This document shows positions 57,672-64,000 of a DNA stretch of 64,000 bases, in pieces. A program made the position numbers and the translations under genes. The first letter of the stretch is position 1; each line of letters begins with the position of its first letter. This stretch comes from Gemmatimonadaceae bacterium (GTDB lineage Bacteria; Gemmatimonadota; Gemmatimonadetes; Gemmatimonadales; Gemmatimonadaceae): the NCBI GenBank assembly GCA_020853635.1, contig JADYYN010000135.1, positions 1 through 64,000 on the forward strand. The letters run 5' to 3'. Under the pieces are notes generated by a model that ran no database searches, was not told the origin of the DNA, and worked only from the letters and a program-made list of their open reading frames with translations.

Positions 57672-60332
57672 GTGATGCATCGGCGTCTCTTCTCGACGCT
57701 CCTCGCGATCCTTGCCGTCCTCGCCGCGCCGCGCACTGCCCACGGGCAGGAGCGCGGCGCGGCCGCGTTGGAGCAACTGGTACGAGGGCTCCCCGTCAAC
57801 GCACGTGTGCTCATCATCGGCGCGCATCCGGATGACGAGGACACGCAACTCATCGCCTGGCTCGCACGCGGGCATCAGGTCCACACGGCGTATCTTTCGC
57901 TCACGCGAGGCGATGGCGGTCAGAACATCATCGGCACGGAACTCGGGGAGTCGCTCGGCGCCATCCGGAGCGCGGAGCTGCTTGCGGCCCGCGCGATCGA
58001 CGGCGGTGAGCAGTTCTTCTCACGCGCGTATGACTTCGGCTTCTCGAAGAACGCCACCGAGACGTTCCAGCAGTGGGATCGCGAAGCGCTCACCACCGAC
58101 GTGGTGCGCGTGATCCGTGCGTATCGCCCTCACGTCATCGTGTCGGTATGGTCCGGTACCCGCGCCGACGGCCATGGGCACCACGAAGCCGCCGGACTGC
58201 TCGCGCGCGACGGCTACGACCATTCGGCCGACACCGTGCGCTTCCCGACACAGTTGCACGGACATCCGTGGGCGGCGAGCAAGTTCTATCGCGGCGCGTG
58301 GGCGCGCGCGCTGCCGGCGACGTTGACGTTCAATGTGGGCGCGTTCGATCCCGTGCTCGGGCGCAGTCCCGCCGAGCTCGCTGCGGTCAGCCGCTCGGCG
58401 CATCGGTCCCAAGGGCAGGGCGGCCTCGAGCGGCGCGGCGTGGTGATGTCGCGTCTCTCGCGTGAGGCCACGCGCGTCAACGAGGCGACCGCAGCCGACC
58501 AGGAGACGTCGCTGTTCGATGGGATCGACACCAGTCTCGCGCGTGTGGCAGCGGTGGTGCCGGCCAACCGCGCCGTGTTGGAGCGCGCGACCGCGCGCAT
58601 GGCTTGGGTGCAGCGCGCGCTCGATCTGCGGCGCCCCGCGGGGGTCGTCGATTCGCTGGCCCATCTTGTGACCTCGCTCGAGTTCGCGCGCAGCACGGCG
58701 ACGCGTTGCGGTTGGGGTGTGGTGCGTCGCGCACTCACCGGGGGCGCGAGCATGGTCGAGTGCTCCCATGAGCAACTCGACCTCGATGCCACGCTTGATC
58801 GCATGATCGGGCGCACGAAACAGGCACTCATCGTCGCCGCAGGGATCGCCGTGGAGGTGACGGCCGCCAAGGAACTCCTCGCGTTCGGTGACTCGATGGA
58901 CGCGCAGGTCACGATCCACAATCGTGGCACGCATCCCGTCCGCTGGGACGACCTGCAGCTGACCAACGCGCCGCGCCGCCCGTTCGATGCGGTGGAGATC
59001 CGGCCCGACTCGAGTGCCACCGTCACGCGTCAGGTGATGGGGTTGGTCGATCATCGTCCGTGGTGGACCGGCGGTCGCAACGGACGTCCGCTGTTCGTCG
59101 ACACGCGCTCGCCGGTCAGTGGGATCGCGCAGGTCAGCTACGGTGCGACCGCGCTGCTCGCGCCCAGTGTGTCGATCGCCGAGGGATCACGCCGGCTCTC
59201 CGACGCCACGGTCTGGCTGAGCATCGGCGAGATCCCGGTGTCGTTCTCGGTCGGGGAACTGCAGTTCCGCTACGCCGACCCGGTGCTCGGCGAGCAGCGG
59301 CGGCAGGTGGGCGGTGTGCCACCGCTGACACTCGCACTCGACCGCGGCTTGCAGTGGCGGCGCGCGAACACGCCGATCGACCAGCGCATCCGGATGAGCG
59401 TGCAGTCCCATACCACGAGCGATCGCGCGTTGTCGTTCCGGTATCTGCTACCGACGGGCGCGAAGATCGATGGCGTGCCGGACACGATGACCCTCAAGGC
59501 GGGTGAGTCGCGCGAGGTGTTCATCAACCTCAAGGGTGCGTTGCCGGCCGGGCGACATGAGTTCGGGATCGGTGCCGAGTCCGACGGGGCGGTGTTCACG
59601 GAAGGCTTCCGCGAGATCAGCTATCCGCATATCCCACCGCTGCGACTGTATCGCTCGTCCGCGAGTTACGTGCACGCCGTGCAGCTCCAAGTCCCCAAGG
59701 CGCTCTCGGTGGCGTACGTGGCCACGCAGCCGGACGGCACGGCACAGGCGCTGCGGGAGATCGGCATTCCGACCACCTACCTCACGCCGGATGAGCTGCC
59801 ACTGATGGACCTCGCGCGATTCACGGCGATCGTGATCGGGCCGCGCGAATATGAACGGGCCCCGGAACTCGCTACGATGAACCCGCGTTTGCTGGAGTGG
59901 GTCCGCGCCGGCGGTACGATGGTCGTTCAATACGGACAGTATGAGATGACTCAGCCCGGCATGATGCCGTTCCCGATCGGACTCACACGGCCGGCTGCGC
60001 GCGTGACCATCGAGTCGGCGCCGGTGAAGGTGCTCGATCCCACGTCGAAGCTCCTCACGTGGCCCAACAGGATCGGACCGAAGGACTGGGCCGACTGGGT
60101 GCAGGAGCGGGCGCTGTACATGCCGACGACCATCGACCCGCGGTATCGCACGCCGATCGCGCTCAACGATCCCGACGAGCCCGAGAATCGTGGCGCGATC
60201 CTCGAGGCGACCATCGGCAAAGGGCGCTATGTGTACACCTCGCTCTCGCTGTTCCGTCAGATTCCGGCGGGCATCGAGGGCGGGTTGCGGTTGTTCGTCA
60301 ATCTTCTCTCCGCGGGTTTGCCCCCGCAGTAA
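57672..60332 (+). CDS. secreted PIG-L (LmbE-like) family deacetylase with large C-terminal region
   Basis: Signal peptide; VLIIGAHPDDEDTQLIAWLARGH, GHGHHEAAG. Start GTG 57672 or ATG 57675. Confidence 0.88.
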   Translation: MMHRRLFSTLLAILAVLAAPRTAHGQERGAAALEQLVRGLPVNARVLIIGAHPDDEDTQLIAWLARGHQVHTAYLSLTRGDGGQNIIGTELGESLGAIRSAELLAARAIDGGEQFFSRAYDFGFSKNATETFQQWDREALTTDVVRVIRAYRPHVIVSVWSGTRADGHGHHEAAGLLARDGYDHSADTVRFPTQLHGHPWAASKFYRGAWARALPATLTFNVGAFDPVLGRSPAELAAVSRSAHRSQGQGGLERRGVVMSRLSREATRVNEATAADQETSLFDGIDTSLARVAAVVPANRAVLERATARMAWVQRALDLRRPAGVVDSLAHLVTSLEFARSTATRCGWGVVRRALTGGASMVECSHEQLDLDATLDRMIGRTKQALIVAAGIAVEVTAAKELLAFGDSMDAQVTIHNRGTHPVRWDDLQLTNAPRRPFDAVEIRPDSSATVTRQVMGLVDHRPWWTGGRNGRPLFVDTRSPVSGIAQVSYGATALLAPSVSIAEGSRRLSDATVWLSIGEIPVSFSVGELQFRYADPVLGEQRRQVGGVPPLTLALDRGLQWRRANTPIDQRIRMSVQSHTTSDRALSFRYLLPTGAKIDGVPDTMTLKAGESREVFINLKGALPAGRHEFGIGAESDGAVFTEGFREISYPHIPPLRLYRSSASYVHAVQLQVPKALSVAYVATQPDGTAQALREIGIPTTYLTPDELPLMDLARFTAIVIGPREYERAPELATMNPRLLEWVRAGGTMVVQYGQYEMTQPGMMPFPIGLTRPAARVTIESAPVKVLDPTSKLLTWPNRIGPKDWADWVQERALYMPTTIDPRYRTPIALNDPDEPENRGAILEATIGKGRYVYTSLSLFRQIPAGIEGGLRLFVNLLSAGLPPQ

Positions 60333-60338
60333 GGTCTC

Positions 60339-61673
60339 GTGGCACGTACGCGCGTCGTCATCATCGGTGGTGGGTTCGGCGGTCTGAACGCAGCTCGCAC
60401 GCTCGGGAAGTCCGACGTCGAGGTGATCCTCATCGACCGCACCAACCATCACCTCTTCCAGCCGCTGCTCTACCAGGTGGCGACGACGTCGCTCGCGCCG
60501 AGCGAGATCACGGCGCCCATCCGGTGGGTGCTGCGGCAGCAGAAGAACGTCACCACCTTGCTCGGCACGGTGGAGAAGATCGACCGCGCGTCACGCGCGA
60601 TCCGAGTGGTCGGAGAGCCGGACCCGATCCACTACGACTATCTCATCGTCGCGACGGGGACGCGCCACTCGTACTTCTCGCACCCGGAGTGGGAGAAGTG
60701 GGCGCCGGGATTGAAGAGCATCGAGGACGCGCGTCGCATCCGGAAGCGCTTCCTGCTCGCGTTCGAACGCGCGGAGTGGGAGGAGGATCCGGTCGCACGC
60801 GCTGCACTGCTCACGTTCATCATCGTGGGCGGTGGCCCCACGGGCGTGGAACTCGCCGGCGTGTTGCCTGAGATGTGCAAGCGCGCGTTCCGCCCGGACT
60901 TCCGCCGCATCGACACCTCGAAGGTGCGCGTGATCCTGCTCGAAGGGGGCCCACGCATCCTGCCGAGTTTCCCGGAGTCGCTGTCGGAGCGCGCGAAGCG
61001 GGATCTCGAGCGGCTGGGTGTGGAGGTCCGGCTCAACACGATCGTCACAGGGATCGATGAAGAGGGCGTGACGATCGGTGCCGATCGTATCCGGTCGCAG
61101 TCGGTGTTCTGGGCGGCGGGCAACGCCGCGTCGCCACTCGGCAAGGCGCTTGAGACGCCGCTCGAGCGCACGGGCCGTGTGTTGTTGGAGCCCGACCTCT
61201 CAGTGCCCGGTGATGCGCGCGTGTACGTGGTCGGTGACCTCGCCGCGGTGCCGTGGCAGGGCGACGTGCTCGTGCCTGCCGTGGCGCCGGCGGCGAACCA
61301 GATGGGGCAGCATGCCGCACGGAACATCCTGCGGCATCTGCGCGGTGAGAAGGGCGAGCCGTTCCGCTACACGAACAAGGGTGAACTCGCGACCATCGGG
61401 CGTCACCACGCGGTCGCGTCGCTCGGGGGAGGCAAGTTGAAGATCACGGGCTCCATCGCGTGGATCTTCTGGCTCTTCATCCACATCATGTACCTCGTCG
61501 GCTTCCGCAACCGGCTCAGCGTGCTCCTGCAGTGGGCGTACAACTATCTGTTCTGGGAGCGTGGCGTGCGGTTGATCACGGAGACCGAGGACGCGAGCAT
61601 GTCGCGGCATCCGGCGATGACGGGGCGGACGGGGGAGTTCGAGCGGCGGCAGGTGGGTGCGTCGGGTCCCTGA
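60339..61673 (+). CDS. NAD(P)/FAD-dependent oxidoreductase, type II NADH dehydrogenase-like
   Basis: VVIIGGGFGGLNAARTLGKSDVEVILIDRTNHHLFQPLLYQVAT, VVGDLAAV, C-terminal membrane-association segment. Confidence 0.9.
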   Translation: MARTRVVIIGGGFGGLNAARTLGKSDVEVILIDRTNHHLFQPLLYQVATTSLAPSEITAPIRWVLRQQKNVTTLLGTVEKIDRASRAIRVVGEPDPIHYDYLIVATGTRHSYFSHPEWEKWAPGLKSIEDARRIRKRFLLAFERAEWEEDPVARAALLTFIIVGGGPTGVELAGVLPEMCKRAFRPDFRRIDTSKVRVILLEGGPRILPSFPESLSERAKRDLERLGVEVRLNTIVTGIDEEGVTIGADRIRSQSVFWAAGNAASPLGKALETPLERTGRVLLEPDLSVPGDARVYVVGDLAAVPWQGDVLVPAVAPAANQMGQHAARNILRHLRGEKGEPFRYTNKGELATIGRHHAVASLGGGKLKITGSIAWIFWLFIHIMYLVGFRNRLSVLLQWAYNYLFWERGVRLITETEDASMSRHPAMTGRTGEFERRQVGASGP

Positions 61674-61861
61674 CCTGTGATGCACATTGTGACAGGAGCG
61701 TTGCTCGCACAATGTGATGCGCTGGTTGTTGCAGCAGAGAGAGGTCTCTACTCTTCCCCCTCGAAGCGCCGATGGGTGGTGTGGGAACGGCACACACCAA
61801 GGCATGACATCCATCGTGCGCTTCAGTTCTCGGCCCTCCTGCCGAGACTCAGCAATACGAA

Positions 61862-61955
61862 CAGCTGCTCAGAGCAAACTCATCGAAAGATGAGGACGCA
61901 GAGCCACGGGGCTACAGCGGATCCGTCCGCCATGCTCGCCGAGCCGCCAGCCATG
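61862..61955 (+). promoter_or_regulatory. c-di-GMP-I (GEMM) riboswitch aptamer candidate
   Basis: AGAGCAAACTCATCGAAAGATGAGGACGCAGAGCCACGGGGCTAC...CCGCCATGCTCGCCGAGCCGCC: CTCAT/ATGAG stem with GAAA-type loop followed by GACGCA-AGCC core, as in GEMM-I RNAs; upstream of the surface lipoprotein gene. Confidence 0.85.
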
Positions 61956-62038
61956 TGGACTGAACTCTTGGTCCTCGGTCGGCGGCTCTTTCGCGTGCCG
62001 GTCCGAGAGCCATCCATCTCCTCTCGGAGTCCCTGGCT

Positions 62039-64000
62039 ATGCCGTATCTCTCGAAGCTCATCAAGCGTATCACGCTCGCGTGGTCCGTCACCGCGCTCGC
62101 CGCCATGGCAGCGTGCACTCCTGTGGACAATGTGACCGATCCGGACGGCGGCGAGGCGACTCTCGTCGCCGTCCTTGTCGCGCCGGACTCGGCGGATGTG
62201 CGGGTCGGTGCGCGGTACCGGCTCGTCGCTGAGGCGCGCGATGACCGTGGCCGCTCTATGGTGGGCGCACCGGTCTCGTGGACGAGCACCGACACCTCCG
62301 TGGTGGTTGTCGACACATCGGGTCTCGTGACAGCGGTGGGCGATGGCGTCGCGGAAGTGCGCGCCCCGGCCCGCGGCGTGTCGGGGAAGGCCAAGCTGCG
62401 CGTCCTGGCCGAGCCGGTCGCCGCCGTGGATGTGAACCCATCGAGCGGGACTGTGACGCGCGGTCAGACGGTGACGCTGACGGCACGAGTGCTCAGCGCC
62501 TCGGATTCGGTGATGACCGATCGCCGAGTGACGTGGAGCAGCAACGCGCCTGCGGTGGCGACGGTCGACACCACCGGTCGCGTGTCTGCGGTGGCGAGCG
62601 GATCGGTCGTCATCACGGCTGCGAGCGAAGGGCAATCGGATGTCGCTGCGCTGGTCGTGGTCGACCAAGCGCCTGCGACGGTCAACAATCTCACCGTGAC
62701 CGCGTTCAGTGACACCAGTGTCACACTACGTTTCACGGAAGTGTCCGATGGTGTGAGCGGCGCGGCGAACTACGAGGTGCGTTACGCGTTGCCGCCGCTG
62801 GCCTGGGACAACGCGACCACGGTGGCTCGTGGGTCGTGCGCGACCCCCATCACAGGCACCAGCGTGGGCGCGTCGCGCACCTGCGAAGTGCGTGGCCTCA
62901 CACCCGGCACCAACTACCGGTTCATCGTCCGCGCCTTCCGGGGTGCGTTCGGGAGCGGCGCCGTGTACGGCGCGCTCTCCAATCTGGTCGCGGCGACCAC
63001 GGACCCGGCCGTCATCGCGAGCATCACGCTCACACCCGCCAACTCCGCACTCGTCATCGGCCAGACGGCGACCTTCGTCCCCACCGTCCGCGATGCGAGC
63101 GGGAACGTGTTGACCGGACGCAGCGTCACGTGGAGCTCGACGAACAACGCGGTCGCGACCGTCACGAGCGGCGGTATCGCGACTGCGCTGTCTGCCGGTA
63201 CGGCATCGATCCGCGCGACCTCTGGGTCGGTCGTTGGGAGCGCGGCGATGACGGTGTCAGCGCCGTCGCCGGCGCCGGTGGCGAGTGTCACCGTCGGACC
63301 GGCGAGTGACACCCTAGTCACGGGTGCCACCGTCACGTTCGTGGCGACGCTGCGCGACTCGACGGGCGCCGCGTTGAGCGGACGTCCGATCACCTGGAGT
63401 TCGACCAACACCGCGATCGCGACGGTCAGTGCCTCAGGCGTGGTCACCGGTGTGTCGACAGGCACGACGACGATCCGCGCGACCAGTGAAGGGATCAGCG
63501 GCAACGCGGCCTTGCTCGTCACATTGCCGCCGGTCGCCTCCGTGCTCGTCGGTCCGTCGAGTGACACCGTCGTCACGGGTGCGACCGTGACGTACACCGC
63601 GACGCCCCGCAGTGCCGCTGGCGCGACGCTCATCGGTCGCAGCATCACCTGGAGTTCCGCCAACACCGCGATCGCTACCGTGAATGCGTCAGGCGTTGTG
63701 ACCGGCGTGGCTGCCGGCACGACGACAATTCGGGCCACGAGCGAAGGCGTGCAAGGCGCTGCGGCGCTTTTGGTGACCGTGCCCCCGGTGGCGACCGTGA
63801 CGGTCGGGCCGTCGGTTGATACGGTCAATGTCGGGGCGAGCGCTCCGTTCACCGTCACGCTGCGTGATGCGAGCGGTGCCACGTTGACGGGCCGTGCTGT
63901 GACGTGGAGCTCCACGAACACCGCCGTAGCGACGGTGAATGCGTCCGGTGTCGTCACGGGCGTCGCCGCAGGAACGGCCACCATCCGCGCGACGAGTGAG
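62039..64000 (+). CDS. multi-domain BIG2/FN3 surface lipoprotein (adhesin-like), 3' end outside window
   Basis: Translated by eye from ATG 62039: MPYLSKLIKRITLAWSVTALAAMAACTPVDN..., continuous Ig-like repeats to 64000. Not in the track because no stop falls inside the window. Confidence 0.88.
   Translation, partial: MPYLSKLIKRITLAWSVTALAAMAACTPVDNVTDPDGGEATLVAVLVAPDSADVRVGARYRLVAEARDDRGRSMVGAPVSWTSTDTSVVVVDTSGLVTAVGDGVAEVRAPARGVSGKAKLRVLAEPVAAVDVNPSSGTVTRGQTVTLTARVLSASDSVMTDRRVTWSSNAPAVATVDTTGRVSAVASGSVVITAASEGQSDVAALVVVDQAPATVNNLTVTAFSDTSVTLRFTEVSDGVSGAANYEVRYALPPLAWDNATTVARGSCATPITGTSVGASRTCEVRGLTPGTNYRFIVRAFRGAFGSGAVYGALSNLVAATTDPAVIASITLTPANSALVIGQTATFVPTVRDASGNVLTGRSVTWSSTNNAVATVTSGGIATALSAGTASIRATSGSVVGSAAMTVSAPSPAPVASVTVGPASDTLVTGATVTFVATLRDSTGAALSGRPITWSSTNTAIATVSASGVVTGVSTGTTTIRATSEGISGNAALLVTLPPVASVLVGPSSDTVVTGATVTYTATPRSAAGATLIGRSITWSSANTAIATVNASGVVTGVAAGTTTIRATSEGVQGAAALLVTVPPVATVTVGPSVDTVNVGASAPFTVTLRDASGATLTGRAVTWSSTNTAVATVNASGVVTGVAAGTATIRATSE
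63278..64000 (+). repeat. Tandem BIG2-like coding repeats, period 255 bp (85 aa)
   Basis: Unit starts V-A-[ST]-V-x-V-G-P at 63278, 63533 and 63788. Confidence 0.85.

Follow-up and report, generated by a model that had tools for sequence, protein, structure and literature searches.

A conserved anti-aptamer hairpin behind a GEMM-I aptamer points to a probable transcriptional ON riboswitch ahead of an Ig-like lipoprotein gene in Gemmatimonadaceae

A GEMM-I aptamer precedes a lipoprotein gene at the end of a 64,000-nucleotide stretch of DNA from a Gemmatimonadaceae bacterium (GCA_020853635.1, contig JADYYN010000135.1, positions 1 to 64,000; hereafter the window), which raises the question of how ligand binding is passed on to the gene. 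The original prediction had been a relay of three helices, a, b and c, in which the ligand would ultimately free the ribosome-binding site. The c-di-GMP-I-type aptamer on which this relay depends was borne out, as positions 61863-61951 of the forward strand matched RF01051 over its full length (cmscan, 60.5 bits, gathering threshold 35, model positions 1-87 of 87), and this was the only Rfam match in the whole window. Consistently with the RF01051 model, the aptamer carries a P2 hairpin with a GAAA loop, the P2 and P3 pairs (with two mismatches in P3) and the GC(A) and CC bases of the ligand site, and the 5' strand of P1, GCUG (61864-61867), pairs with CAGC (61948-61951). P2 and the P3 hairpin covary among relatives of the window aptamer. 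RNAfold, which models neither the ligand nor tertiary contacts, preferred other structures to the aptamer fold, even when given the aptamer sequence by itself. By its fold, the window aptamer is genuinely a c-di-GMP-I (GEMM-I) riboswitch, and the assembly to which it belongs (4.17 Mb, 295 contigs) holds three GEMM-I copies.

We then considered the pairing that could link this aptamer to expression. Helix a, proposed between 61941-61948 and 61981-61988, reads as 8 bp, all Watson-Crick. Its 5' arm lies in a conserved switching strand on the forward strand, GAGCCGCCAGCC (61941-61952), which contains the 3' side of P3, a CC and the 3' side of P1 and doubles as the 5' arm of a putative terminator, whose 3' arm is GGCGGCUC (61981-61988). 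In the computed fold, helix a forms the outer part of a long hairpin of -29.3 kcal/mol, with inner stems 61950-61952/61977-61979 and 61957-61963/61968-61974, the latter closing the inner stem-loop (61957-61974) of the minimum-energy structure. Hairpin 61941-61995 had a z-score of -4.4, with none of 200 shuffles equally stable, and the chance expectation for an exact complement of the helix a 8-mer nearby is about 0.005. Because the 5' arm includes the outer strand of P3 and a conserved CC, which we take to be a ligand contact as the GEMM-I literature assigns it, and adjoins P1, the aptamer and the helix a hairpin cannot coexist: positions 61941-61951 are used in both, once as the aptamer 3' strand with its ligand-contacting C and once as the terminator 5' arm. 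The proposed exclusivity of helix a and aptamer is thus upheld, and with it the ON direction of the switch, which we infer from this exclusivity. When RNAfold was run on growing transcripts, helix a jumped from a probability of 0 at 61984 to 0.99 at 61986, and the energy by which the imposed aptamer trails the best fold grew from roughly 10 to roughly 21 kcal/mol; in these predictions, the late emergence of helix a fits a decision taken during transcription.

Natural copies of the same arrangement allowed this pairing to be examined on a larger scale. Nine subclass aptamers, collected with the aptamer-only model RF01051 alone (the window and eight others, including the own-genome paralogue L001), all had a perfect 8-bp helix a, its complement lying 18-31 nt downstream, against an expectation of 0.24 when the downstream sequence is shuffled; among the other GEMM-I aptamers of the same relatives, a perfect helix a was found in 1 of 53, with 2.6 expected. 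A covariance model built from these nine and run on family, order and phylum samples set the subclass clearly apart (mostly above 85 bits, versus about 73 and below for ordinary aptamers) and brought the group to at least 130 copies, from the own genome and relatives in several families of the phylum. Among the 130 copies read, helix a pairs at 8 of 8 positions in 93 and retains a five-pair core in 123. Computed conservation and covariation extend to both states: in a 109-row alignment, which was fitted to the subclass model and leans towards it, 95.7% of the cells pair and 19 of 27 pairs change on both sides, values that none of 500 shuffles reached, while slid partners pair at only 34-63%. 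P1 (NGCUG/CAGCN) covaries across copies (CGCUG/CAGCG in 87, UGCUG/CAGCA in 11, CACUG/CAGUG in 4 and AGCUG/CAGCU in 2). Because the aptamer constrains the 5' arm of helix a, little variation is seen in this outer stem; the inner stem, free of that constraint, shows double changes in all four of its pairs.

What follows helix a suggests how the hairpin acts. At least 5 T in 8 directly after it were present in 71.5% of the subclass copies against a background of 1.5%, and four or more consecutive T in 56.9% against 1.3%; the tails of relatives contain up to nine T in a row, and L160 (GGCGGTTTTTTTTTAT) and L118 (GGCGGTCTTTTTTTTT) have the form of textbook intrinsic terminators. Judged by these computed T-rich tracts, this subclass uses helix a as the stem of an intrinsic terminator. 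The window copy has a short, interrupted tail, UCUUUCG (61987-61993), whose best 8-nt stretch contains 4 T, and helix a escaped a simple terminator scan whose thresholds are 5 or more T in the 8 bases after the stem and a loop no longer than 8. Same-genus tails are likewise interrupted, with 3-5 T in 8, whereas copies of other families reach 8 of 8. As the window tail is weak, like most in its genus, termination may be leaky here, and for the same reason we infer termination in the window copy from its kin. Such tails could also be read as decay, helix a being a relic in this genus that has lost its U-tract and left a weak or dead switch. We hold this to be extremely improbable, because the stem is perfect in every same-genus copy even though its 3' arm lies outside the aptamer, and because five of the seven same-genus copies keep at least 4 T in 8, for which the background is 6.2%.

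Beyond the terminator, the relay requires two further helices, and their letters are as proposed: helix b (61984-61989 with 62006-62011) and helix c (62003-62009 with 62021-62027) comprise 6 and 7 Watson-Crick base pairs, respectively, and the hairpin of helix c (62003-62027) covers the Shine-Dalgarno GGAG (62026-62029), 9 nt before ATG 62039. The choice of this start codon is supported by the paralogue L001 and the relative L050, which share both GGAG-N9-ATG and the beginning of a lipoprotein. A translational ON switch would use these elements as follows: the ligand frees 61981-61988, helix b then forms and breaks helix c, and the Shine-Dalgarno is released. All three helices can indeed be written at these positions, helix c lies in the minimum-energy free fold and, when the bound state was imitated by forcing P1, P2 and P3 in RNAfold, it fell to P = 0.009 with the AUG less paired. 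Helix b itself, however, had a probability of 0.000 with and without the aptamer constraint, becoming non-zero only when forced, and combining it with the aptamer cost 6.6 kcal/mol relative to the best bound structure, in which another helix forms at about 61976-61987 with 61994-62005 and GGAG is paired through other partners. The unpaired probability of GGAG was about 0.0 in the free and the aptamer-bound state alike, contrary to the proposed release, and predicted accessibility showed no consistent rise in the ON state across eight related leaders. Conservation also argues against the relay. The complement needed for helix b occurs in 3 of 130 relatives, with 1.6 expected, and we rejected helix b, including its 3' arm at 62006-62011, as a functional element. 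Helix c was rejected as a conserved sequesterer, since its position and sequence are not kept in L001, which has no equivalent arm, and the Shine-Dalgarno is paired in both states; its predicted stability is near chance (62000-62050, z = -1.1, 21 of 200 shuffles equally stable; 61984-62050, z = -2.1, 8 of 200). We therefore consider a purely translational ON switch very unlikely. The original interpretation stands for the aptamer, its exclusivity with helix a and the ON direction, and falls for the a-b-c relay and purely translational control; of the three helices, helix a alone is supported as a functional element.

A combination of both layers was also weighed, in which helix a would stop transcription and the following leader of 45-50 nt would act as a brake on ribosome access through a hairpin over the Shine-Dalgarno or start codon, either constitutive or linked to the ligand. 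In the window, the OFF-state fold contains an extended hairpin over both elements, with an AUG unpaired probability of 0.02 that rises to 0.69 when only the aptamer is removed, and leaders are longer in same-genus copies than in other families; against this, the pattern varies between relatives, and GC-rich leaders fold anyway (segment z-scores of -1.1 to -2.1). Two-layer control is thus unlikely, and a secondary effect on the window start codon is possible as far as folding predictions go. Other candidates in the region were set aside or stand as isolated observations. A small upstream ORF from ATG 61953 was rejected as a coding sequence, since the window and L001 place it in different frames with respect to the main gene. 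A CCGAGAC box (61837-61843), about 15-25 nt upstream of the aptamer, recurs in L001, L059 and L060, and in the window and L001 a complementary arm precedes it; being present in just 7 of 130 copies, it was rejected as a conserved element. A sigma-70-type promoter scan of 61600-62200 found none.

Our preferred reading, which we regard as probable, is that a riboswitch with the GEMM-I/c-di-GMP-I fold turns transcription on at this locus by antitermination. RNA polymerase would transcribe the aptamer first, and binding of a cyclic dinucleotide (c-di-GMP or 3',3'-cGAMP) would keep 61941-61951 within aptamer P3 and P1, so that the terminator is blocked and transcription runs into the Ig-like lipoprotein gene. 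With no ligand, 61941-61948 would pair with 61981-61988 as the latter emerges, and the hairpin 61941-61988 with its U-rich tail would end or attenuate transcription ahead of the gene.

The closest known counterpart is the GEMM-Ib riboswitch of pilM in Geobacter metallireducens, an ON switch for transcription that responds to cGAMP and whose terminator sequesters the ligand-binding C75 (PMC9262584). Both have the GEMM-I fold, an A at the selectivity position and, most likely in the window, an ON direction; in both, the terminator (putative in the window) draws its 5' arm from the 3' strand of the aptamer together with the ligand-binding C, which makes bound and terminated states exclude each other. 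Moreover, pilM transcripts stop binding once the terminator strand takes C75 (PMC9262584), which the predicted co-transcriptional appearance of helix a matches. The window and its subclass differ from pilM in belonging to another phylum, in having a canonical, covarying P1 (NGCUG/CAGCN) and a GAAA loop, and in preceding Ig-like lipoproteins rather than pili or cytochromes; in addition, the window has a weak U-tract and no Hypr GGDEF was seen in its genome. Cd1, the c-di-GMP-I riboswitch of Clostridioides difficile, is also transcriptional, with an intrinsic terminator after the GEMM-I aptamer, but unlike the window it is an OFF switch with a separate antiterminator, and its terminator can coexist with the aptamer (PMC9262584). 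The antitermination design is hence already known from Geobacter, and the novelty here lies in how large the group is, in an A20 pocket combined with a canonical P1, and in the phylum; our literature search found no paper joining Gemmatimonadota with such riboswitches.

The ligand had been taken to be c-di-GMP, but the key selectivity base is that of the cGAMP-sensing class. Position 61873, model position 11, is presumably equivalent to G20 of Vc2, a correspondence that we derived through the G21-C46 closing pair. In the RF01051 alignment this base is A in the window, as in GEMM-Ib, and not the consensus G of RF01051 expected for c-di-GMP-I, and A occupies position 20 in 129 of 130 subclass copies. 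An A at this position is a feature of the cGAMP-sensing GEMM-Ib riboswitches of Geobacter, and an A20G change in Gmet_0970 shifts selectivity to c-di-GMP (PMC6456294). Since position 20 is a selectivity factor and not a hard filter (PMC9262584), the A at 61873 matters for the choice of ligand and leaves the fold assignment untouched. Known cGAMP switches occur alongside a Hypr GGDEF protein that synthesises cGAMP, a companion in the genome and not part of the RNA. No Hypr GGDEF, with Ser in place of Asp, was found among the readable GGDEF sites of the own genome and three relatives, where one site had Asn and the rest Asp; in the own genome, 84% complete, 9 of 10 sites were readable, all of them Asp, some weak domains being unreadable. 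With an A20 as in GEMM-Ib yet no Hypr GGDEF, the ligand would be either c-di-GMP or 3',3'-cGAMP.

The phylum holds other GEMM-I designs. G20-type aptamers (among them L004, L007, L010, L012, L015 and L018) share the fold, and several precede lipoprotein-like genes, but they lack the anti-aptamer hairpin and terminator. Their Shine-Dalgarno mostly follows the aptamer by 11-18 nt and the ATG by 20-30 nt, and this closeness, with no terminator, marks a different platform that probably exerts direct translational control. A third type, with A20 and a GCGA/GUGA loop, has no hairpin resembling helix a (L021 excepted) and looks closer to Geobacter GEMM-Ib; its members are L003 (own genome, C53), L014, L017, L019, L021, L024, L026, L027 and L032. 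Same-type A20 pairs or triplets in tandem were seen in L119 (1344-1777), L151 (201-636), L116, L186 and L183, with a triplet spacing of about 157 nt. In mixed tandems (L155, L162, L165, L167, L168, L172, L173, L175 and L177), a second GEMM-I aptamer lies about 30-60 nt beyond an A20 aptamer and its terminator, directly ahead of the Shine-Dalgarno and ATG; the second aptamers were of the G20 type where the sequence was printed, and two score best as RF03167 (c-di-GMP-I-GGC). Such mixed tandems are possibly two-level, perhaps two-ligand, gates. A bolder proposal, which we offer tentatively and think rather unlikely to be right, is that the ligand of the phylum-wide A20 subclass is 3',3'-cGAMP or a different hybrid dinucleotide, the product of some synthase outside the Hypr GGDEF type, and that tandems of an A20 terminator aptamer and a G20 ribosome-site aptamer form a two-signal AND gate acting at two levels of expression.

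The gene behind the window riboswitch (62039-64000, forward strand, continuing past the window) encodes a lipoprotein with Big_2 (1.2e-63) and fibronectin type III (fn3, 7e-10) Pfam domains. It lies downstream of two genes on the same strand, one at 57672-60332 whose product resembles PIG-L deacetylases at its N terminus (Mca/MshB/BshB1 matches under the cut-off) and one at 60339-61673 for an FAD-dependent NADH-dehydrogenase-like oxidoreductase. A search of genome contigs with the lipoprotein returned just one distant relative, and the comparison was therefore made on the RNA. Among 58 proteins downstream of subclass copies, Big_2 was found in 43 and Big_1 in 34 (E <= 0.001), and many begin with M..xxKLxxRLA and have a lipobox-like cysteine, although start codons were chosen by a simple score and single cases may be wrong. 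Most likely, a high signal turns on surface or secreted Ig-like lipoproteins in this group and, in the window, the adhesin-like lipoprotein gene behind the riboswitch. Attachment is a role commonly given to c-di-GMP, and a switch-on of lipoproteins at high signal agrees with it.

With so many natural replicates, what began as a guess at a three-helix relay becomes an antitermination switch open to experiment, and an A20 pocket beside no recognised cGAMP synthase gives a tangible starting point for finding out which dinucleotide is used by these bacteria. One phylum places two GEMM-I designs before surface-lipoprotein-like genes, an A20 aptamer with a terminator and a G20 aptamer beside the ribosome site.
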